Assembly: GCA_002699585.1 (NCBI GenBank)
Contig: PABP01000009.1
Coordinates: forward strand, 483,750-547,749
DNA: 64,000 nt
Origin: Anaerolineaceae bacterium
Lineage (GTDB): Bacteria; Chloroflexota; Anaerolineae; Aggregatilineales; Phototrophicaceae
Direction of reading: 5' to 3'
Part shown: positions 29,083-43,364 of the stretch, in pieces
Layout of the letters: the number at the start of each line of letters is the position of its first letter
Numbering within the stretch: position 1 is the first letter of the stretch
Notes under the pieces: model-generated
Seen by the model: only the letters and a program-made list of their open reading frames with translations
Database searches by the model: none
What the model was told of the DNA's origin: nothing
Translations under genes and position numbers: made by a program

Positions 29083-31635
29083 ATGATAAGTCTCTATGAT
29101 TTCCTAAATGCAGCGAATGGCCAGCTCTTTGGTGAACCTGCGGCGCAGCTATTCACCAATTTTAGCCTTGATCCGTATTTGGCTGATGAATCCGATCTGT
29201 TTGTGGCCCTGCAATCCGAGCGTGGCAATAGTCATGACTACATCGCGGAAGCCATTCGGCGGGGTGTTGCTGGCGTCGTCTGTACCTACCCGCCGGATTG
29301 CGAAACGGATGGCGTTTCGGTCATCATGGTTCGCGATCCGTTCGATGCGATGATGGCCTGGTCGCGTTTTGTTCTGAAGAAATACCAGCCGCATATCGTT
29401 GCCATAGCCGGTTCCTGCTCCAAATCCGTAACAGCCCAGGCGACGACACTCCTGCTAAAACAGACCCACCAAGTGCATCGCGGCAGCATCAATACGACAG
29501 GTCGCCTCAATTTGCCGTTGTCTATTGCGGGTATGCGGCCCGATGATGAATATCTCGTTATCAAACTGGACGTAGAAAAACCCGGCGATATGGCCGCGAT
29601 GCTCGATGTCATTACGCCGGAAATTGCCATACTCACGCATATCGATTGCCACCATCCAGCCGCTTTCACTGACTGCGATCAGTACGTGCAGGAGATGCAA
29701 TCGCTGGTGGAAGCAGTCTCGGAAGAGGGGCTTGTCGTCCTCAATATGGACGATACTCGTGTTGCGCCGCTGATAGATGTCGCCCAGGCGGAAGTGCGTA
29801 CCATAGCGATGGAAGCCTTCGGCACAGATTTGATGGCCTACAACATCCTGCCAGACATCGCCCGCACAGGCTTTGACCTGCGCTATGGCAGTGAGCGCTA
29901 TGTCGCGCGTTGGATTCCATTATTGAGCAAGTTGCACCTGTATAGCGCACTGGCTTCGCTGGCCGTTGCCCTGCATGCCGGCCTCCCCATTGATGCCGGT
30001 TTGCGTGCCCTCACGAAACTGAAGCCGCTGCCGGGGCGCATATCACCGTTGCGGGCCAAAGAGGGCGCTATCGTCATTGATGACTCCTACGCCGCCAATG
30101 TTCTCAGTACAGAAGCAGCCCTAATGTGGCTCAAAGACATCAAGTACGACCATCAGGTGATGGTCATTCTGGGTGAGCTAGACGACCATTCTGAACACAG
30201 TCAGGTCGCTCATCGCAATGTGGGCAAAGAAGTGGCCGATGTGGCCGATGTTCTTATTACCCTGGGTGGGGAAGCTGCCCAGGCGGCGCGCTCAGCCATT
30301 GATCATGGTATGGATAGCAGTCGCGTTTTTACGGCATATAGCTGGGAAGAAGCCGTCAGCTTTGCCCAGCATTATGGTATGAGCGAAAATGACATTATCT
30401 ATGTCAAAGGCGGGCGGCTGGCACGCATGGAAACCGTTGTTCGTGCCCAGTTGGCGGATAAATCCGACGAAGTATATACCGTGCGCTACGTTCCCGATGA
30501 AGCCGACAAATCCACCTCACCAACACAATCACTGTTCCCAAGTTGGGTCGAGGTCGATACCGATACCATCGCCAACAATATCCAGATCATTAAATCCATG
30601 CTGGCTGATGATGTGGCGCTGTGTGCGGTCGTTAAAGCCAATGCCTATGGTCATGGGGCGGTTTCAATTTCTCGTATAGCAGCTTCCAATGGTGCCGATT
30701 ATCTGGCGGTCGCTTCCATTGCGGAAGCGCTGGAACTGCGCGACGCGGGTATTAAGTTCCCGATATTGGTGTTGACCTATACGCCCCTCCACGCTATCCG
30801 ACAGGCGGTACGGGCCAATTTGACCGTCACCGTCTTTGATCTGGAACAGGCCCGTGCTTATGATCGGGCGGTGCGCGATATGAATACCCCCCTAAAGTAT
30901 CAGGTTAAGATTGATACAGGCATGGGGCGGCTCGGTGTCTTGGTTGATGATGCGCTGCACATGTTCCGCTATCTGGATGCCCTCAGCCATCTGGAATTAG
31001 AAGGTATCTATACGCACTTCTCGGTTGCCGATGAAGACCTCAGCTACACGAGCGATCAGGCTTTCGCTTTCAAACGCATTGTCCAGGCGGTACGCGCCAG
31101 TGGCTTCTCATTCAAATACGCGCATGCTGCCAATTCCGCTGGTATGCTGCAAGGCCCGGATTTTCACTTTAATATGGTGCGACCGGGTATCGTGTCGTAT
31201 GGCGTCACGCCGGCCCCACACATGGCCTTGCCCGATGGTATTCGGCCTGCGCTTACGTGGAAAACGACTGTTTTGCAGGTCAAGACGCTGCCGCCAGGGC
31301 ATGCGGTTGGCTATGGCAATGCGTACCATACCAGCGAAGCTGAAAAAATCGCGATTCTGCCAGTGGGTTACGCCGATGGCCTGCGCCGATCCCCGCGTAG
31401 CTGGAAAGAGGTGTTGATCAGGGGGCAGCGTGCGCCTTTAGTTGGCCGCGTCAGCATGGAAAAATGCGCTGTCAGCGTGCAGGAAATCCCTGGTGTGACA
31501 GCCGGTGATGAAGTGGTTTTATTGGGTCAGCAGGGTGATGATGCCATCACAGCCGATGAAATTGCACACTGGCTGGGCACCATCAACTACGAAGTACTGA
31601 CCAGTGTGCTGCGCCACGTCCCGCGCAAAGCTTAG
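29083..31635 (+). CDS. MurF-like ligase / alanine racemase fusion
   Basis: 850 residues. Residues 1-480 follow the Mur ligase MurF order: an N-terminal UDP-binding part, a central ATPase domain, and a C-terminal domain with DDSYAANVLSTEAALMWL and YVKGGRLARMETVV. The P-loop reads GSCSKS (110-115) where MurF has GSxGKT, and the metal/substrate motifs after it are altered. From about 485 onward it is alanine racemase: PLP Lys518 in VVKANAYGHG, KIDTGMGRLG, and YADGLRR. The racemase looks functional; the ligase half may be inactive or altered. MurF-Alr fusions are known in Bacteroidetes. Confidence 0.88.
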   Translation: MISLYDFLNAANGQLFGEPAAQLFTNFSLDPYLADESDLFVALQSERGNSHDYIAEAIRRGVAGVVCTYPPDCETDGVSVIMVRDPFDAMMAWSRFVLKKYQPHIVAIAGSCSKSVTAQATTLLLKQTHQVHRGSINTTGRLNLPLSIAGMRPDDEYLVIKLDVEKPGDMAAMLDVITPEIAILTHIDCHHPAAFTDCDQYVQEMQSLVEAVSEEGLVVLNMDDTRVAPLIDVAQAEVRTIAMEAFGTDLMAYNILPDIARTGFDLRYGSERYVARWIPLLSKLHLYSALASLAVALHAGLPIDAGLRALTKLKPLPGRISPLRAKEGAIVIDDSYAANVLSTEAALMWLKDIKYDHQVMVILGELDDHSEHSQVAHRNVGKEVADVADVLITLGGEAAQAARSAIDHGMDSSRVFTAYSWEEAVSFAQHYGMSENDIIYVKGGRLARMETVVRAQLADKSDEVYTVRYVPDEADKSTSPTQSLFPSWVEVDTDTIANNIQIIKSMLADDVALCAVVKANAYGHGAVSISRIAASNGADYLAVASIAEALELRDAGIKFPILVLTYTPLHAIRQAVRANLTVTVFDLEQARAYDRAVRDMNTPLKYQVKIDTGMGRLGVLVDDALHMFRYLDALSHLELEGIYTHFSVADEDLSYTSDQAFAFKRIVQAVRASGFSFKYAHAANSAGMLQGPDFHFNMVRPGIVSYGVTPAPHMALPDGIRPALTWKTTVLQVKTLPPGHAVGYGNAYHTSEAEKIAILPVGYADGLRRSPRSWKEVLIRGQRAPLVGRVSMEKCAVSVQEIPGVTAGDEVVLLGQQGDDAITADEIAHWLGTINYEVLTSVLRHVPRKA

Positions 31636-33636: not shown

Positions 33637-33656
33637 GGGTAAACTACGCCATAACA

Positions 33657-33754
33657 TAGAGAGCGTCTTGATGACCGCCGAAGGGGCAAGCGTCGGATAA
33701 AAATCCCCGATGTGAAACTCTCAGGCAAAAGGATGTGTTATGGTGCCGTCTCTG
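33657..33754 (+). ncRNA. Glycine riboswitch (single aptamer)
   Basis: The conserved glycine-aptamer core is visible: CCGCCGAAGGGGCAA at about 33675-33689, then a variable hairpin arm, then AAACTCTCAGGCAAAAGGA at 33715-33733. An outer helix can form between AGAGA (33658-33662) and TCTCT (33749-33753). Only one aptamer is seen, not the usual tandem pair. It precedes glycine cleavage genes and an intrinsic terminator, so glycine most likely turns the operon on. Confidence 0.9.
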
Positions 33755-33896: not shown

Positions 33897-34289
33897 ATGG
33901 CAGACCTGAAATACCCTGAAGACTTGAAGTATGCAGAAAGTGACGAGTGGATCCGTATTGATGGCGATGAGGCCGTCGTTGGCATCAGCGACTTTGCCCA
34001 GGATGCCCTCAATGACATCGTCTACATTGAACTCAAAGAAGTTGGCGAAGTCATCGAAGTCGGCGAGCCGTTTGGTGAAGTCGAATCTGTAAAGGCTGCT
34101 TCCGAATTGGTGCTGCCAGTCAGCGGCGAAATCATTGAAATCAACAGCGATCTGGAAGACGATCCCGAAGTTATCAACGCCGATCCTTACGGTGCAGGCT
34201 GGATGGTCAAAATCAAGATCACCGATGATAGCAATCTGGCCAAGTTGATGGACGTCGAAGCCTATAAAGCCTTTAACGAGGATCGCTAG
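33897..34289 (+). CDS. gcvH: Glycine cleavage system H protein
   Basis: 130 residues, the lipoyl carrier of the glycine cleavage complex. The lipoylated Lys66 lies in EVESVKAASELVLPVSG, with ASEL typical. RBS GAGGAG lies 9 bases ahead of the ATG. First gene after the glycine riboswitch; gcvPA follows 94 bases later. Acidic and of normal length. Confidence 0.97.
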   Translation: MADLKYPEDLKYAESDEWIRIDGDEAVVGISDFAQDALNDIVYIELKEVGEVIEVGEPFGEVESVKAASELVLPVSGEIIEINSDLEDDPEVINADPYGAGWMVKIKITDDSNLAKLMDVEAYKAFNEDR

Positions 34290-34383
34290 TTCGCCGGTCC
34301 TTATCCCCGAACGCTGTATTGGCTGGTTCGTGTGCTTGATGCCTGCGGACCAGCACTTTGATTAGTCATAAAGGTGTAACGCG

Positions 34384-35718
34384 ATGGGATACATCCCGCA
34401 TACGGAGGTCGAGCGCCAGCAGATGTTGGCTGCGATTGGCGTCACGACCATCGAAGATCTATTTGATGCCATACCCGCTTCGCACCGCTTCCCCAAGCTC
34501 AATATGCCCCCGGCCATGAGCGAAATGGAAGTTGCGGCGGAGATGCAAGCCCTGTCAGAAGCCAATGAACACGCGGGTGACTTCGCTGTTTTCCGCGGAG
34601 CCGGGGCTTATCATCATTTTGTACCCTCCGTAGTGAACCATATTTTGCTGCGTGGCGAGTTCTACACAGCCTACACACCCTACCAACCGGAGCTTTCCCA
34701 GGGTACGTTGCAGGCGACCTACGAATATCAGAGCATGATGTGTGCCTTAACTGGCATGGACGCCGCTAACGCCAGCCACTATGACGGTGCGACCAGCCTT
34801 GCGGAATCGGTGACGGTTGCGGTGCAGGTCGGGCGTAAGCGCAATAAAATCGTGCTTAGCCCTGGTATTAACCCGCAATATCGTGAAGTTGTGCGAACCT
34901 ATCATCAAGGCCGTGGCCTGGAAATCGTCGGTGATGAAGCCGATGCCGACCTGGCCGCACTGGCTGAAATGATCGATGAGCAAACGGCGATGGTCGCTAT
35001 CGCTTACCCGAACTTCTTCGGCCAGATTGAAGATGTCAGCGCCCTGGTGACAGCCGCCCACGATGCGGGTGCGCTGGTGGTGTTTGTGGCTAACCCGATG
35101 ATGCTGGCTCTCTTCAAATCACCTGGCGAACTTGGCGCAGATATCGTTGTGGGTGATGCGCAACCGCTGGGCGTACCCATGGGGTATGGTGGCCCTTATC
35201 TGGGCTTCTTCGCCACCAAGACCAAGTACGTGCGCAAAATCGCTGGCCGTATCATCGGCGAAACAGTCGATGCGGATGGCAAAAAAGCCTATGTCATGAC
35301 CCTGCGCCCCCGTGAGCAGGATATCCGCCGTGAGAAGGCCAGCAGCAATATCTGCACCAATCAGGGCTTGATGGCGCTGGCGGCGTCGGTCTATCTGGCG
35401 CTGATGGGTCGCAATGGGCTGCGTAAAGTCGCCCAGTTGAATTATCATAAGGCGCATTATGCTGCCGACCAGATCGACCAGATTGATGGCTTCAAGGTGT
35501 TACGTAGCAATCCGTTCTTTAACGAATTCATGGTCAAGTGCCTGATGCCAGTCGAAGCGGTCAACAATGCCCTGATTGGTGAGGGTATCGTCGGTGGCTA
35601 TGACCTCGGCAAAGACTATCCGCATCTGAAAGACCATATGCTGCTGTGCGTCACTGAAATGAACAGCAAAGAAGAAATCGACGCGCTGGTCGATGTGTTG
35701 AAAGGGCTGGCCTCATGA
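34384..35718 (+). CDS. gcvPA: Glycine dehydrogenase (decarboxylating) subunit 1
   Basis: 444 residues, the N-terminal half of the split P-protein. Typical stretches: MGYIPHTEVERQQMLAAIG at the start, FRGAGAYHHFVPSVV, FYTAYTPYQPELSQGTLQ and the C-terminal LLCVTEMNSKEEID. It forms the active P-protein with GcvPB. The stop overlaps the gcvPB start by ATGA. No clear RBS is seen before the ATG. Confidence 0.97.
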   Translation: MGYIPHTEVERQQMLAAIGVTTIEDLFDAIPASHRFPKLNMPPAMSEMEVAAEMQALSEANEHAGDFAVFRGAGAYHHFVPSVVNHILLRGEFYTAYTPYQPELSQGTLQATYEYQSMMCALTGMDAANASHYDGATSLAESVTVAVQVGRKRNKIVLSPGINPQYREVVRTYHQGRGLEIVGDEADADLAALAEMIDEQTAMVAIAYPNFFGQIEDVSALVTAAHDAGALVVFVANPMMLALFKSPGELGADIVVGDAQPLGVPMGYGGPYLGFFATKTKYVRKIAGRIIGETVDADGKKAYVMTLRPREQDIRREKASSNICTNQGLMALAASVYLALMGRNGLRKVAQLNYHKAHYAADQIDQIDGFKVLRSNPFFNEFMVKCLMPVEAVNNALIGEGIVGGYDLGKDYPHLKDHMLLCVTEMNSKEEIDALVDVLKGLAS

Positions 35719-37229
35719 CCGTTGCTACCGAAACGAAACAGGACGTGCTGGAACCCCTCATCTACGATTTGAGCGTACCCGGTCGCACTGGCGTTAATCT
35801 GCCCGATTGTGATGTGCCGGAAACACCTCTGCCGGATGATTTGCTGCGTGACGACCTCAAACTACCGGAAGTCGGCGAATTGCAGGTGGTGCGTCACTTT
35901 CTCAAGCTCAGCCAATTGAACTATTCGATTGATAAGGGCTTCTACCCGTTGGGGTCCTGCACTATGAAGTACAACCCCAAACTCAATGAGGATATGGCTC
36001 GCTTGCCTGGGTTCGCGTTACAACATCCGTTATCTGATGAAGCCGGTTCCCAGGGTGCTTTGGCGCTGATGTATCAATTGCAGGAATGGCTGGCAGAACT
36101 CAGTGGTTTTGAAGCCGTGAGTCTGGCCCCGGCAGCCGGGGCGCAGGGTGAATTTTCTGGCATCCTGATGATCCGCAACTATCATCTGGATCGCGGCGAT
36201 TCCGAGCGCACCAAAATTCTGGTTCCCAACAGTGCGCATGGTACCAACCCCGCCACTGTGACGATGGCAGGCTTTGACGTCATCGAACTGCCATCTGACG
36301 ACAAAGGCAATGTTGATCTGGAAGCCCTGCGCACAGTCTGCAAGGAAAAAGGCCCACAGATCGCTGGCATGATGATTACCGTGCCCAGTACGCTTGGCCT
36401 CTTTGAGGCGCATATCTTGGATGTCATCGAGATTGTGCACGAAGCGGGCGGCTTGATGTACATGGACGGGGCCAACATGAATGCCCTGATGGGGCAGGTC
36501 AAGCCCGGTGAACTGGGCTTTGACGTGATGCACTACAATCTGCACAAGACCTTCAGCACACCGCATGGTGGTGGTGGCCCTGGCAGTGGCCCGGTTGGCG
36601 TCGGCGATAAGCTCAAACCCTTCCTGCCCGGACCTATCGTGGAAATCACTGAGGAACCGACGGAAGACGAGGAAGCGCCCGTATATGGCTTCAAAATGCC
36701 GGAAAAATCCATTGGCCGGATGAAAGCCTTCCACGGCAACTTTGGGATGCACGTCCGCGCCTATGCCTATATCCGCATCTATGGCGGTGAGGGTCTGCGC
36801 GAGGTCAGTCGTCATGCGGTCCTGAATGCCAATTATATCCGTGCCCAACTGCTGGATACCTACAAAGTGCCGTACCCGCGTTACTGCGGCCATGAATTCG
36901 TGCTGGAAGGTCGTTTCCCAGAGGCCGAAGGCATTCATGCGCTCGACATCAGCAAGCGCCTGATGGACTATGGCTACCATCCACCCACGAATTACTTCCC
37001 ACTGATTGTGCCGGAAGCGCTGCTGATCGAGCCGACTGAGACGGAAACCAAAGACGAATTGGATGGCTTCATTGATGCCATGAAGCAAATCGCGGAAGAA
37101 GCCCGTAATGATCCCGATTTGCTGCATGACGCGCCGCATACAGCTCCCGTCAAGCGCCTGGACGAGGTGAAAGCAGCCAAAGACCTGATTCTGTGCTGCG
37201 CGCCAGCTTTGCCATCTGTCGGCGACTAA
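35715..37229 (+). CDS. gcvPB: Glycine dehydrogenase (decarboxylating) subunit 2
   Basis: 504 residues, the PLP-binding half of the split P-protein. PLP Lys278 lies in MHYNLHKTFSTPHGGGGPG; FYPLGSCTMKYNPK and PNSAHGTNPATVTM are characteristic. It decarboxylates glycine and passes the aminomethyl group to GcvH. It is the last gene of this operon: gcvT is not here but fused to glyA at 40227-43364, and lpd is not in the window. A perfect hairpin follows at 37258. Confidence 0.97.
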   Translation: MTVATETKQDVLEPLIYDLSVPGRTGVNLPDCDVPETPLPDDLLRDDLKLPEVGELQVVRHFLKLSQLNYSIDKGFYPLGSCTMKYNPKLNEDMARLPGFALQHPLSDEAGSQGALALMYQLQEWLAELSGFEAVSLAPAAGAQGEFSGILMIRNYHLDRGDSERTKILVPNSAHGTNPATVTMAGFDVIELPSDDKGNVDLEALRTVCKEKGPQIAGMMITVPSTLGLFEAHILDVIEIVHEAGGLMYMDGANMNALMGQVKPGELGFDVMHYNLHKTFSTPHGGGGPGSGPVGVGDKLKPFLPGPIVEITEEPTEDEEAPVYGFKMPEKSIGRMKAFHGNFGMHVRAYAYIRIYGGEGLREVSRHAVLNANYIRAQLLDTYKVPYPRYCGHEFVLEGRFPEAEGIHALDISKRLMDYGYHPPTNYFPLIVPEALLIEPTETETKDELDGFIDAMKQIAEEARNDPDLLHDAPHTAPVKRLDEVKAAKDLILCCAPALPSVGD

Positions 37230-37324: not shown

Positions 37325-38038
37325 TTACTCAGGCTGGGGCAACCAGTTGATGCTGGCACCATCAGTGACGAAGACCACTGTGTAGACATCATACTCTTCC
37401 GGCAGTTCACTGCTGTACACCAGGCTGATGACATCCTGAGGATTCATCATGGAATGTGACATATCATTGCTCATGTCATCTGACATATCGTCAGTGGTAT
37501 CCATGTCGTCAGTGCTTTCCATAGTGGCTTCCGGCGTAGCGTCCATTGCTTCAGCAGTAGGTTCCATACCTTCGACGGTCGGTTCCATGTCCGTGCCTTC
37601 CGGCGTCAGCGTTTCCATATCATCTGGAACAGCTTCCATACCGCCGGACATGTCCGTTTCGCCCATGGTTTCTGCTGGCACGATGTCGATGTCATACATG
37701 GGGGTCGCCATGTCGTTGTCTTCGATGTAGCTCAAAGACGGTTGCACGGTACCGCTTACGGATGCCTGAGCACCTTTATAGATGTTGGTGTCAATGTTTG
37801 AACTCAGGTTGACAACCAGCACAGCATCATCATCCAGTGCGGCGCCCTCACTCAGGACGAAAATACGCGGGCTGATGAACTCACGTACATGACCTTCGAG
37901 AGTCACAGTTTGGCCATAATATTCATCCGTGCCGGTGATGGTTTCCAGGGTCAGACCTTCATCTTCCTGGGCTGCAACGACACCTACGAAGGCCATTACC
38001 ATAACGGCCATGACTAAAATACGAAAATGCTTAAACAT
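37325..38038 (-). CDS. Secreted protein with Met/Asp/Thr-rich segment, unknown
   Basis: 237 residues. Signal peptide at 1-23 (hydrophobic core VMAVMVMAFVGVV, AxA-like end). Residues about 28-120 look like an OB-like beta domain (QTVTLEGHVREFISPRIFVL, ASVSGTVQPSL), similar in pattern to exported DUF-type nucleic-acid or metal OB folds. Residues about 125-205 are low complexity, rich in Met, Asp, Glu, Thr and Pro (TPEGTDMEPTVEGMEPT, DDMSDDMSNDMSHSMM), and could bind metal ions. The last 30 residues return to ordered sequence. No family recognised. Confidence 0.65.
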   Translation of the reverse strand: MFKHFRILVMAVMVMAFVGVVAAQEDEGLTLETITGTDEYYGQTVTLEGHVREFISPRIFVLSEGAALDDDAVLVVNLSSNIDTNIYKGAQASVSGTVQPSLSYIEDNDMATPMYDIDIVPAETMGETDMSGGMEAVPDDMETLTPEGTDMEPTVEGMEPTAEAMDATPEATMESTDDMDTTDDMSDDMSNDMSHSMMNPQDVISLVYSSELPEEYDVYTVVFVTDGASINWLPQPE

Positions 38039-40226: not shown

Positions 40227-43200
40227 CTATTTCGGGAAGCGCCGCAGCACGGTAACGGCCTCTGGCATGACTGCCCGATCCCCGAATTTCATATTGCTCA
40301 ATGGACGGACCTTGGCTCGTTCAGAGCCAGCGAATACGGCAAGCTGTGTATTGCGCTTGTGGTTGCCTAGCTTGACCAGTGCCTGACCCAATTGGTAGCC
40401 TTCGCTATCAATGCTGCAACTGGTGACAATGCCGACCACGCGGCCCTTGTCATCGACGAGTGGGTCGCCCTGATGGGCTGGCCGTGCTCCCTTGTTCTCC
40501 ATCCTGAAGCGCACAATCTGCGAGTCACGGGCCGTATCGCGGGCAATATAGGCCGCTTTACCAACAAACCAGGGCTTGCTGAACTTGACGTAGCTGCCCA
40601 TGCCTGCTTCCGAAGGGATCATATCGTGTGGTCCGGCCAATTCATGGCCATAGAGCGGCAAACCCGCTTCGATGCGCAGGCTGTCACGCGCTGCCAAACC
40701 ACAGGGAACAGCTCCAGCTTCAATGAGTGTCGTGAACAGGGCTTCGGCTTGGTCAGGGTGCGGGAATACCTCGAACGCGACCCGTTCGCCTGTGTAGCCC
40801 GTCCGGGAAATCAATAGATCAAAGCCGCCGATTTCCGCGCGCATGATGCCCGCCCAGGGCAGGGCCTTCAGCGCTTTGAGGTCGGCTTCGCTGCCACCCA
40901 ATGATGTCAGAATCTCCAGGCTCTTGGGGCCTTGCAGCGCGATGTCCACCCTGCGATCCGCGCCGGAACCGGGATCGCGCAGGTCACGCAGTTCAAACGG
41001 TGCTGTCTCGACTGTGCGCCCCGGCATGTCCGGGTCAATGCATACCTGACCCTCTTTGATAGCATTCAGCCAGGCCCAGTTCTTGTCGTTGTTAGACGCA
41101 TTGACCACAATGAAGAAGTGCTCATCGCCCAGCCTGTAGATCATCAGATCATCGTGCGGGACGCCGTCGGTATCCAGCAAGAACGTATAGTGTGAACGAC
41201 CATTTCTCAGCAAATGCACGTTATTGGTCGTGACCATGTTGAGGAAGTCCTCAGCGCCGGGGCCAGTTGCCTCGAACACGCCCATATGCGTCACATCGAA
41301 CAGGCCCGCGCCGTTGCGCACCGCCAGATGTTCGTTCATGACCTTGTCGTACCACAGCGGCATGTCATAGCCTGCGAATTCGCCCATCTTCGCGCCCAAT
41401 TGCAGATGAACGTCGTGCAGCGGGGTCGTCAGCATTTCGGTCAGTTCCGGCTCTGTGAACTCGAAACTGGGTAGGGCATTGCCAACGGGTCCGGCGTAAT
41501 TTTCACCATTCTTGCCGATGAAATAGGTCTTGTCGCTGTAAGGAGCATCCGCTGATTTAGAAAGATTCTTCTCCGTCTCACCGATGTATTTGACGGAAAC
41601 GGGGCCGGGTGCGGTGATGTACGGGTCGCTCTCATCGAAGATGACGAAATTGTCCGACAGTGAACGCAGCCATGCCGCCACACGGGCCGGGTTATCGGCC
41701 ACATGCAGTTGATAGGTATCCTTGCTGATGCGCTCTACGATGCCGGATGCCATCAGACTGCCATCGGCTTCTAGTAACAGGGTCGGCTGTTCGTCGCCAT
41801 CAGCCAGGGCTGCTACATCGCTGGTCAATGCCAGGTCGAGCAGGCGACCCGCGTTTTTGCCACTCACAGCTAAGGTCTGACCCGTATTGCTGTAGGCATC
41901 ATCCAGATAGAAGAAATGTGGGTAGCCATCGGCTTCTGCATCGGTGTCGATGCCGATGCTATCGACCAGATCACGAATCGCAATTTTCGCTTGCTGGAAG
42001 GTATCAAACGGCAGACGGGCACGCGCTTCGTTGCGTTTGGTCGTGGGCATGCTGTAGGGCACGCAGGCTTGCAGTACATCCGCGATGATGGTCGCCAGCT
42101 TGTCGATTCGGGCTTCGTCAAAGCCACGCTGGGTGATCCAGGGCGTGCCCAGGCGAATGCCGCTCGGACGCAGGGCGCTGGTATCGCCGGGGATGGTCTG
42201 TCGGTTGCCGACCACGCCGATCAGGTCCAGGATGCGCGCTGCCATATCGCCACTGAGTGCCGTGCCGTCCGGCCCAACAACAGTCGAGCAGTCGACCACG
42301 ATCATATGCGAATCGGTGCCTTTGTAGACCACACGCAGGCCGCGTTCATCCAGCTTTTGCCCTAGTCGCCGTGCATTAGCGACTGTCTGGTGCTGCAACT
42401 GTTTGAATTGCTCCGTCTGGGCGAAGCGCAGCGCGACCGCTAATCCGGCGACGCTGTTCATATGGGGGCCACCTTGCTCGCCAGGGAAAACGCCGCGATC
42501 AATTTTGGAGGCCAGATCTTTGTGATGGGTGATGATGACCGCTCCGCGCGGACCATTGAGCGTCTTGTGCGTGGTGAAGGTCACAATATCCGCGATGCCG
42601 ACCGGGTTCGGGTATGCACCAGCGGCGATCAACCCAGCGAAGTGGGCCACGTCGGCCATCAAATAGGCGCCAGCGGCGTCAGCGATCATTTTATAGGCTT
42701 CCCAATCTGGGGCCAGCGGATAGCTGCTGTAGCCGCCGATGACGATCTTGGGTTTGTGTTCTAGCGCCAACTGCATCATGGCATCGTAATCGAGCGCTTC
42801 TGTTTCCGGGTCGATGTGATAGGCCACAATGTTGAATAACTTACCCGCCCGGTTGACGGGAGCGCCGTGGCTCAGGTGGCCACCGTAGGATAGGTTCATA
42901 CTCAGGATGGTATCGCCCGGTTGCAGCAGAGCGGTATAGACCGCGCTGTTAGCCGGTGCGCCCGATAGCGGCTGCACATTGACGTACAGATCATCGGGAC
43001 CATACGGGGCCTGGGTGAACAATTCAGCCACGCGCCGCCGCGTTAATGCCTCGACCAGATTGGCATACTCGGTGCCTTTGTAATAGCGATCATCGCTGTT
43101 ACGCCGAAAATCACCCAACTGGCGATCATAGTCGAGCAGTTCACGCTCGGTCATCTTGCGCGTTTTTTCGGTCGGGTAGCCTTCAGCATAGATATTATGG

Positions 43201-43364
43201 AAAGCGGAACCGACAGCTTCGCGCACGGCTTCTGGCACGGTACTCTCAGAAGGGACCATAATGAGCGTACGGGCTTGGCGCGCAGTTTCGTGACGAATTA
43301 ACTCGGCAACATCAGGGTCGAGTTCGTCTAGCTCTCCCCTGAACAAGTAATCATCTTCGGTCAT
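40227..43364 (-). CDS. Serine hydroxymethyltransferase-aminomethyltransferase fusion (GlyA-GcvT)
   Basis: 1045 residues. Residues 1-440 are serine hydroxymethyltransferase, with PLP Lys267 in FTTHKTLNGPRG, VQPLSGAPANSAVY and GGYSSYP. Residues about 644-1045 are the glycine cleavage T-protein, with LFDVTHMG, DGVPHDDLMIYRL (catalytic Asp region), and a C-terminal RVGIVTSC-type barrel (here GRVVGIVTSC). Between them, residues about 497-568 resemble a degenerate copy of the GcvT N-terminal part. Both enzymes interconvert glycine and methylene-tetrahydrofolate, so fusion may channel the C1 unit. It completes the cleavage system whose H and P genes lie 3-6 kb away. Confidence 0.94.
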   Translation of the reverse strand: MTEDDYLFRGELDELDPDVAELIRHETARQARTLIMVPSESTVPEAVREAVGSAFHNIYAEGYPTEKTRKMTERELLDYDRQLGDFRRNSDDRYYKGTEYANLVEALTRRRVAELFTQAPYGPDDLYVNVQPLSGAPANSAVYTALLQPGDTILSMNLSYGGHLSHGAPVNRAGKLFNIVAYHIDPETEALDYDAMMQLALEHKPKIVIGGYSSYPLAPDWEAYKMIADAAGAYLMADVAHFAGLIAAGAYPNPVGIADIVTFTTHKTLNGPRGAVIITHHKDLASKIDRGVFPGEQGGPHMNSVAGLAVALRFAQTEQFKQLQHQTVANARRLGQKLDERGLRVVYKGTDSHMIVVDCSTVVGPDGTALSGDMAARILDLIGVVGNRQTIPGDTSALRPSGIRLGTPWITQRGFDEARIDKLATIIADVLQACVPYSMPTTKRNEARARLPFDTFQQAKIAIRDLVDSIGIDTDAEADGYPHFFYLDDAYSNTGQTLAVSGKNAGRLLDLALTSDVAALADGDEQPTLLLEADGSLMASGIVERISKDTYQLHVADNPARVAAWLRSLSDNFVIFDESDPYITAPGPVSVKYIGETEKNLSKSADAPYSDKTYFIGKNGENYAGPVGNALPSFEFTEPELTEMLTTPLHDVHLQLGAKMGEFAGYDMPLWYDKVMNEHLAVRNGAGLFDVTHMGVFEATGPGAEDFLNMVTTNNVHLLRNGRSHYTFLLDTDGVPHDDLMIYRLGDEHFFIVVNASNNDKNWAWLNAIKEGQVCIDPDMPGRTVETAPFELRDLRDPGSGADRRVDIALQGPKSLEILTSLGGSEADLKALKALPWAGIMRAEIGGFDLLISRTGYTGERVAFEVFPHPDQAEALFTTLIEAGAVPCGLAARDSLRIEAGLPLYGHELAGPHDMIPSEAGMGSYVKFSKPWFVGKAAYIARDTARDSQIVRFRMENKGARPAHQGDPLVDDKGRVVGIVTSCSIDSEGYQLGQALVKLGNHKRNTQLAVFAGSERAKVRPLSNMKFGDRAVMPEAVTVLRRFPK

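Follow-up and report, generated by a model that had tools for sequence, protein, structure and literature searches.

In most organisms serine hydroxymethyltransferase (SHMT, GlyA) and the T-protein of the glycine cleavage system (GcvT) are separate proteins. T-protein domains are also known joined to a partner enzyme, as in dimethylglycine oxidase, dimethylglycine dehydrogenase and sarcosine oxidase alpha, where a one-carbon unit is passed to tetrahydrofolate (THF); for the dimethylglycine oxidase/dehydrogenase type, an internal cavity that channels the intermediate has been described (PMC5082570). The window analyzed here, a stretch of 64,000 nucleotides from an Anaerolineaceae bacterium of the phylum Chloroflexota (contig PABP01000009.1, positions 483,750 to 547,749), shares the principle of coupling a T-protein domain to another enzyme: a gene on its minus strand (40227-43364) joins a full T-protein to SHMT, with the degenerate remnant of a second GcvT between them. 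Judging from its sequence and surroundings, the product is very probably a bifunctional housekeeping enzyme that supplies the only canonical SHMT and T-protein of the organism, serves the nearby gcvH-gcvPA-gcvPB operon, and carries two folate sites on one chain.

The gene is a single frame with an ATG start, encoding 1045 amino acids (aa) followed by a stop codon, with zero internal stops, as the initial annotation of the window had described it. The two enzyme identities proposed there are borne out by profile searches that place both halves above the curated NCBIfam cut-offs: 432 bits against 335 for the SHMT model NF000586, and for GcvT 260 against 236 (TIGR00528) and, by a narrow margin, 304.9 against 300 (NF001567). 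The Pfam families SHMT (409.6 bits, cut-off 27, best stretch aa 92-427) and GCV_T (274.1 bits, best stretch aa 649-923) each match the protein in two stretches. A fusion of two enzymes was thus the right description as far as SHMT and GcvT are concerned, but it overlooked a third, degenerate GcvT-like unit in the roughly 150 residues between them.

Both active sites are intact. The SHMT half possesses Y59, E61, Y95, H163, D238, H241, H266, K267, R273, N387 and R404, and in 51 of 51 aligned fusions K267, Y59, E61, Y95, H163, D238, H241 and R404 are invariant, these eight being presumably the lysine that binds pyridoxal phosphate (PLP) and the catalytic Tyr, Glu, His and Arg residues, by correspondence with the E. 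coli enzyme. The T half possesses H693, M694, D739, N755, R854, Y857, E860, R893, E899 and Y905, of which D739, presumably the catalytic Asp of the T-protein, pairs with Asp96 of the Thermotoga T-protein (manual count on the alignment). The lysine and the Asp region that had been called intact in the initial annotation are found within the motifs TTHKTL (K267) and DDLM (Asp738-Asp739). Altogether 21 of the 22 SHMT and GcvT columns examined are invariant across the 51 fusions, the exception being position 389. An AlphaFold2 model derived from these 51 sequences has a predicted local distance difference test score (pLDDT) of 89.1 and a predicted template modelling score (pTM) of 0.85; its T half matches the structure 1wos over 351 aligned of 361 residues (Z 45.5, root-mean-square deviation 1.7), and its SHMT half matches 6ymd over 412 residues (Z 37.5, deviation 1.7), SHMT structures overall giving Z 35-37.5 over 385-427 residues with deviations of 1.6-2.2.

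Compared with SHMT in general (PF00464, NF000586), the N-terminal part has the same fold, PLP lysine and active-site residues and is 40-46% identical to the matched SHMT structures over about 400 residues; peculiar to the fusion are a 28-aa insertion at aa 65-92 and the remnant and full GcvT units that follow. The insertion marks the fusion clade, being 28 aa long in 104 of the 106 rows from fused or split forms (the window's protein counted twice), 27 in one and 5 in one, whereas the same region in 14 stand-alone SHMT-family rows comprises 2 aa in 11 and 1, 7 and 16 aa in the others. Compared with GcvT (PF01571, TIGR00528), the C-terminal part has the full fold and the HM-DD-N-R-Y-T-E-R-R-E-Y signature common to the stand-alone GcvT proteins L123-L125, and differs in its position behind SHMT, in the location of its gene apart from the gcvH-gcvP operon, and in an extra insertion of about 20-25 aa around aa 779-803 that is missing from 1yx2 and L123-L125.

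The organism's own genome (6.7 Mb in 42 contigs, 96.2% complete) yielded no separate canonical glyA or gcvT in searches with the protein and with both Pfam families, about 4% of the genome possibly missing. The initial annotation had held that separate functional glyA and gcvT genes elsewhere in the genome would speak against its reading; only a divergent SHMT-like protein (locus L002) and a YgfZ (L003, which exceeds the cut-off of the YgfZ model) were found. The SHMT-like protein has 442 aa and 31% identity, scores 266 bits against the NCBIfam cut-off of 335, lacks Y59 and E61, and is perhaps an SHMT-derived aldolase or transaldolase. By these family searches, the fusion is the only canonical source of SHMT and GcvT in the genome. 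A side observation is that the PLP protein of L002 adjoins a DUF1152 protein (473-2817 of the locus, minus strand, contig C28). Among 61 genomes surveyed for paralogues and for GcvP and GcvH (55 of the 67 fusion genomes counted below plus six with split genes), 55 have no other SHMT-family gene above the cut-off, and six are exceptions (G000, G017, G070, G113, G338 and G358), among which only the extra copy of G070 scores like canonical SHMT. All 61 contain members of the GcvP and of the GcvH family, compared with 10 and 13, respectively, of 14 control genomes.

A survey of GlyA-GcvT fusions across the Chloroflexota, which the initial annotation had suggested as a check, finds the architecture widespread. 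In 400 genomes of at least 80% completeness drawn evenly from the phylum (hand count, matches listed down to about 292 bits), one frame covers both enzymes in at least 67, of which 43 belong to the window's class, represented by 58 genomes, and 24 do not. Six further genomes, all of family f3, have a split form consisting of an SHMT-plus-middle protein of about 600 aa and a separate GcvT of about 400 aa, and the seventh f3 member, G276, has a fusion; five sampled genomes are cut by contig ends or ambiguous, and seven of the window's class have no match in the fusion range. A scan of contigs with exact peptide words of the query, which reaches near relatives only, gave 60 loci, with both parts in one frame at 58. 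Contigs of 57 of these 58 fused loci are titled Chloroflexi or its subgroups. The remaining fusion (L053), 60% identical to that of the window, comes from a contig of 770 kb whose title names the cyanobacterium Pleurocapsa minor, and this contig is probably a mislabelled Chloroflexota bin.

Alignments were made from 50 of the 60 loci (A1; ten truncated, near-duplicate or unrelated loci left out), from 43 of those 50 (A2; without seven in which long insertions separate the halves) and from every second row of A1 (A3), and two trees were built on 52 and 48 chosen rows. The SHMT tree, a quick one rooted at its midpoint, places fused and split SHMTs on one side of a branch (99*) and stand-alone SHMTs on the other. 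The split forms nest within the fused clade beside the fusion of G276, and so look like the outcome of later fission, at a point that keeps the middle unit attached to SHMT. On these sequences the fusion protein most likely arose once.

The reactions of the two halves may be predicted from the established chemistry of both families. The T half would accept the aminomethyl group from lipoyl-GcvH, loaded by GcvPA and GcvPB, and combine it with THF to give 5,10-methylene-THF and ammonia, and the SHMT half would interconvert methylene-THF plus glycine and serine plus THF, so that the net result with the P-, H- and L-proteins would be the conversion of two glycine to serine, CO2 and NH3, the opposite conversion, or the breakdown of serine to glycine and a one-carbon unit. 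THF and methylene-THF could shuttle locally between the two folate sites of the polypeptide, and the middle GcvT, which remains attached to SHMT, may persist as a folded domain for spacing or docking. The conversion of two glycines "within one polypeptide", as first proposed, is right in that the SHMT and T sites are on one chain, but it is too strong a wording because glycine decarboxylation needs GcvPA/GcvPB and lipoyl-GcvH, which are encoded by separate genes. Direct transfer of methylene-THF between the sites is plausible by analogy; the existence of the split clade indicates that local transfer is not obligatory everywhere and, since both enzymes are separate genes in f3, that the enzymes can do without covalent linkage.

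A weaker form of the proposal, which has a slightly better than even chance of being correct, is that two independent enzymes happen to be on one chain, an arrangement that would fix their stoichiometry and co-expression while folate moves through the bulk pool with no local transfer. The occurrence and persistence of split forms in six f3 genomes are in its favor, whereas the retention of the fusion across many families while neighboring genes vary, the constraint on the spacer evident from its ratio of nonsynonymous to synonymous substitution rates (dN/dS), and the pTM of the model, which suggests a defined arrangement of domains, argue against it. A bolder idea, rather unlikely on present indications, is a protein dedicated to shuttling folate: the half T-protein would be a non-catalytic platform, possibly still in contact with folate, that holds the T half against SHMT, and a single polyglutamated THF would move back and forth from one active site to the other, glycine being turned into serine without release of methylene-THF.

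The role of the fused T half may be judged from genomes that have a second T-protein. Among the 61 surveyed genomes (GcvT matches listed down to about 140 bits), only four have a separate gcvT above 300 bits (G094, G142, G182 and G113), and the fused T halves of these four score 165-193 bits and no longer have all of the motif residues H, M, D and N. The separate gcvT retains the signature in the three of the four that were read (L123-L125, that of G142 not being among them). Because the three f49 genomes are related, these are two independent cases of decay rather than four. In G113 the separate gcvT is directly ahead of gcvH-gcvPA-gcvPB, an order without counterpart in the window's operon, and the fusion (L114) lacks active-site residues in both its SHMT and its T half in a genome with two other SHMT-family genes; it is possibly a retained pseudoenzyme. 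A further f49 genome, G206, has a separate 392-aa GcvT-like gene and a diverged fused T half cut by the contig end. Elsewhere in the alignments, the T halves of fused and split proteins keep the signature, with the exceptions of the variable positions 666 and 759, rows cut by contig ends, Val753 replaced by Ile in L032, and Arg854 replaced by His in L107 and L115.

Decay of the fused T half where a separate gcvT exists supports the view that elsewhere, the window included, the fused T half does the work of the T-protein, and this would be the simplest reading of the sequences wherever a separate gcvT is absent. An alternative is that the T half no longer carries out the T-protein reaction and serves SHMT only as an appendage for folate binding or regulation. 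Such a change has apparently taken place in f49 and G113, where residues of the T site are gone; yet a separate high-scoring gcvT exists in those very genomes, whereas the motif of the window's protein is intact and no other canonical GcvT was found in its genome, and for the window the appendage is very unlikely.

The middle unit includes a partial GCV_T domain of 34.5 bits at aa ~497-576 (residue numbers converted by hand). When 44 middle segments and 26 fused T halves are each made into a profile, the two profiles match with a probability of 98.6 and an E value of 8.6e-16, and the window's segment, which reaches a pLDDT of 85.6 when folded alone, finds T-proteins as its top matches in Foldseek (1yx2, E 2.9e-7) and gives Z 11-14 in VIA to T-proteins, dimethylglycine dehydrogenases, sarcosine oxidase and YgfZ/Iba57. 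Its alignment with 1woo consists of 112 residues spread over residues 50-275, so that roughly half of the GcvT domain is gone. The Asp pair is missing as well: the equivalents of D738 and D739 are A539 and S540, and the middle units of the 51 fusions have Asp at the former position in none and at the latter in four. Three relatives have longer middle copies, with the Asp pair retained in L109 (a 1252-aa frame, 135 bits to the window's T half) and L111 (67 bits), and with the pair lost and the second half eroded in L165. These point to an ancestor of SHMT-GcvT-GcvT form, which probably arose by internal duplication and then underwent erosion of the middle copy, with loss of the Asp pair and of the second half. 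Within aa 601-642, the motif KTYFIG is read as what is left of a strand that has the sequence (S)KPYFIG where the middle copy is full-length, the intervening stretch having been deleted. Long middle copies and C-terminal copies alike carry the insertion at aa ~779-803, which is absent from L123-L125. The GcvT tree neither supports nor excludes duplication, because its two middle copies are on long branches, as are the decayed T halves; the middle copies do not cluster with the C-terminal copies of their own proteins.

The spacing of SHMT and GcvT ranges from 168 to 355 aa (median 178) in 98 fused frames, but a long gap does not by itself signify a fuller middle copy, since some stem from other insertions. 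The median dN/dS is 0.114 for the SHMT part (36 pairs), 0.121 for the GcvT part (33 pairs) and 0.225 for the middle segment (35 pairs, maximum 0.63), several pairs being near synonymous saturation and the pairs not strictly independent; by this measure the middle remnant is under purifying selection and not simply decaying. YgfZ/COG0354, Iba57 and other proteins of the GcvT fold likewise have a GcvT-fold unit in a different role, COG0354 being an Fe/S-cluster protein formerly annotated as GcvT (PMC3223725), but the middle unit is a half domain inside a fusion and is no closer to YgfZ/Iba57 than to T-proteins. A lineage-specific linker with a chance likeness to GcvT would agree with the middle being the fastest-evolving of the three parts measured, with its lack of the Asp pair, and with the lengthening of the gap by other insertions in several relatives; given the profile comparison, the Foldseek and VIA matches, and the longer middle copies, in two of which the Asp pair survives, it is highly improbable. 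The suspicion that an error of assembly or binning made one open frame out of two genes, for which the origin of the window in a 42-contig draft might speak, is refuted by many independent assemblies of identical architecture (the sampled fusion genomes, several of them single-contig, and the 58 of 60 scanned loci) and has a negligible chance of being true.

The gcvH-gcvPA-gcvPB operon without gcvT that had been noted in the initial annotation is present as three consecutive plus-strand genes (33897-37229), convergent with the fusion gene and 3 kb from it (Table 1). A glycine riboswitch precedes gcvH, as do all the riboswitch matches in the relatives L055, L088, L090 and L092. Glycine may thus regulate the P- and H-proteins while the T-protein, tied to the ever-needed SHMT, may be made independently of glycine.

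Several observations weigh against a sole bifunctional enzyme serving the gcv operon. No glycine riboswitch was found at the gathering score ahead of the fusion in nine loci (that of the window, L001, and eight relatives). The gcv genes are downstream of the fusion in only 11 of the 41 loci with at least 5.5 kb of downstream sequence (convergent in ten of the eleven), and close linkage to gcvP as a rule is rejected on this count. The split genes are neighbors in four of the six f3 genomes and are found on separate contigs in the other two. In G070, a fusion whose T signature is intact coexists with a second high-scoring SHMT. Position 389, presumably the folate-site Asn of other SHMTs, is Asn in 26 of the 51 aligned fusions and Gln in 25, including the protein of the window. 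Many f2 genomes have GcvT-family paralogues of about 400 aa at about 210 bits; the one inspected from f2 (L121) and a similar protein from f8 (L122) retain the Asp pair and not the His-Met motif, so that sole T function is less sure in such genomes. The f2 genomes (for example G109 and G327, with two each) also have frames of about 810-880 aa with GCV_T domains.

Table 1. Features of the fusion gene and the gcv operon (window coordinates).
Feature	Coordinates	Strand	Basis or remark
Glycine riboswitch aptamer (RF00504, 58 bits)	33646..33746	+	ahead of gcvH
gcvH	33897..34289	+	Pfam, NCBIfam
gcvPA	34384..35718	+	Pfam, NCBIfam
gcvPB	35715..37229	+	Pfam, NCBIfam
GlyA-(remnant GcvT)-GcvT fusion gene	40227..43364	-	open reading frame, Pfam, NCBIfam, structure model
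SHMT (GlyA) part, aa 1-470	41955..43364	-	profiles, alignments, structure match
28-aa insertion in SHMT part, aa 65-92	43089..43172	-	alignment
PLP lysine K267 codon	42564..42566	-	alignment
Middle domain, aa ~486-600, degenerate half GcvT domain	41565..41909	-	profiles, fold comparison, alignment
aa 601-642, with KTYFIG	41439..41564	-	comparison with longer middle copies
Full GcvT (T-protein), aa 643-1045, active-site signature intact	40230..41438	-	profiles, alignments, structure match
D738-D739 codons	41148..41153	-	alignment

Two other genes of the neighborhood are of separate interest. On the plus strand, 29083-31635 encodes an 850-aa protein in which the middle and C-terminal domains of a Mur ligase are joined to both alanine racemase domains, a fusion of the MurF-Alr type. 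On the minus strand, 37325-38038, between gcvPB and a TrkA-like gene, is a 237-aa frame without a Pfam match and with a C-terminal part rich in Met, Thr and Asp.

No model of the joint protein was among the NCBIfam matches of the fusion, and no paper describing an SHMT-GcvT fusion was among the matches listed in a literature search that covered few subscription papers and did not extend to protein-database annotations, where the fusion may well be listed. Because SHMT and GcvT are both well known and fusions of T domains are an established kind, the novelty is one of arrangement only. Direct passage of methylene-THF from the T-protein to SHMT is a question also for leaf mitochondria, in photorespiration, and for engineered reductive-glycine pathways. 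Here both sites are on one chain in a large bacterial group, the linkage has apparently been undone in one clade, and one half has decayed where a separate gene exists; the natural fused, split and half-dead versions are a ready set for a direct test of transfer. The fusion is a possible part for one-carbon engineering, and among its relatives a duplicated catalytic domain can be followed by degrees as it is reduced to a conserved spacer. In the dimethylglycine oxidase/dehydrogenase type, the partner of the T domain is a flavin adenine dinucleotide enzyme that makes the carbon unit, whereas in the fusion the partner is SHMT, which consumes or makes methylene-THF itself. Those enzymes set an example of a T-type folate domain to which an intermediate is channelled (PMC5082570), and local exchange of THF between the two sites of the fusion is plausible.

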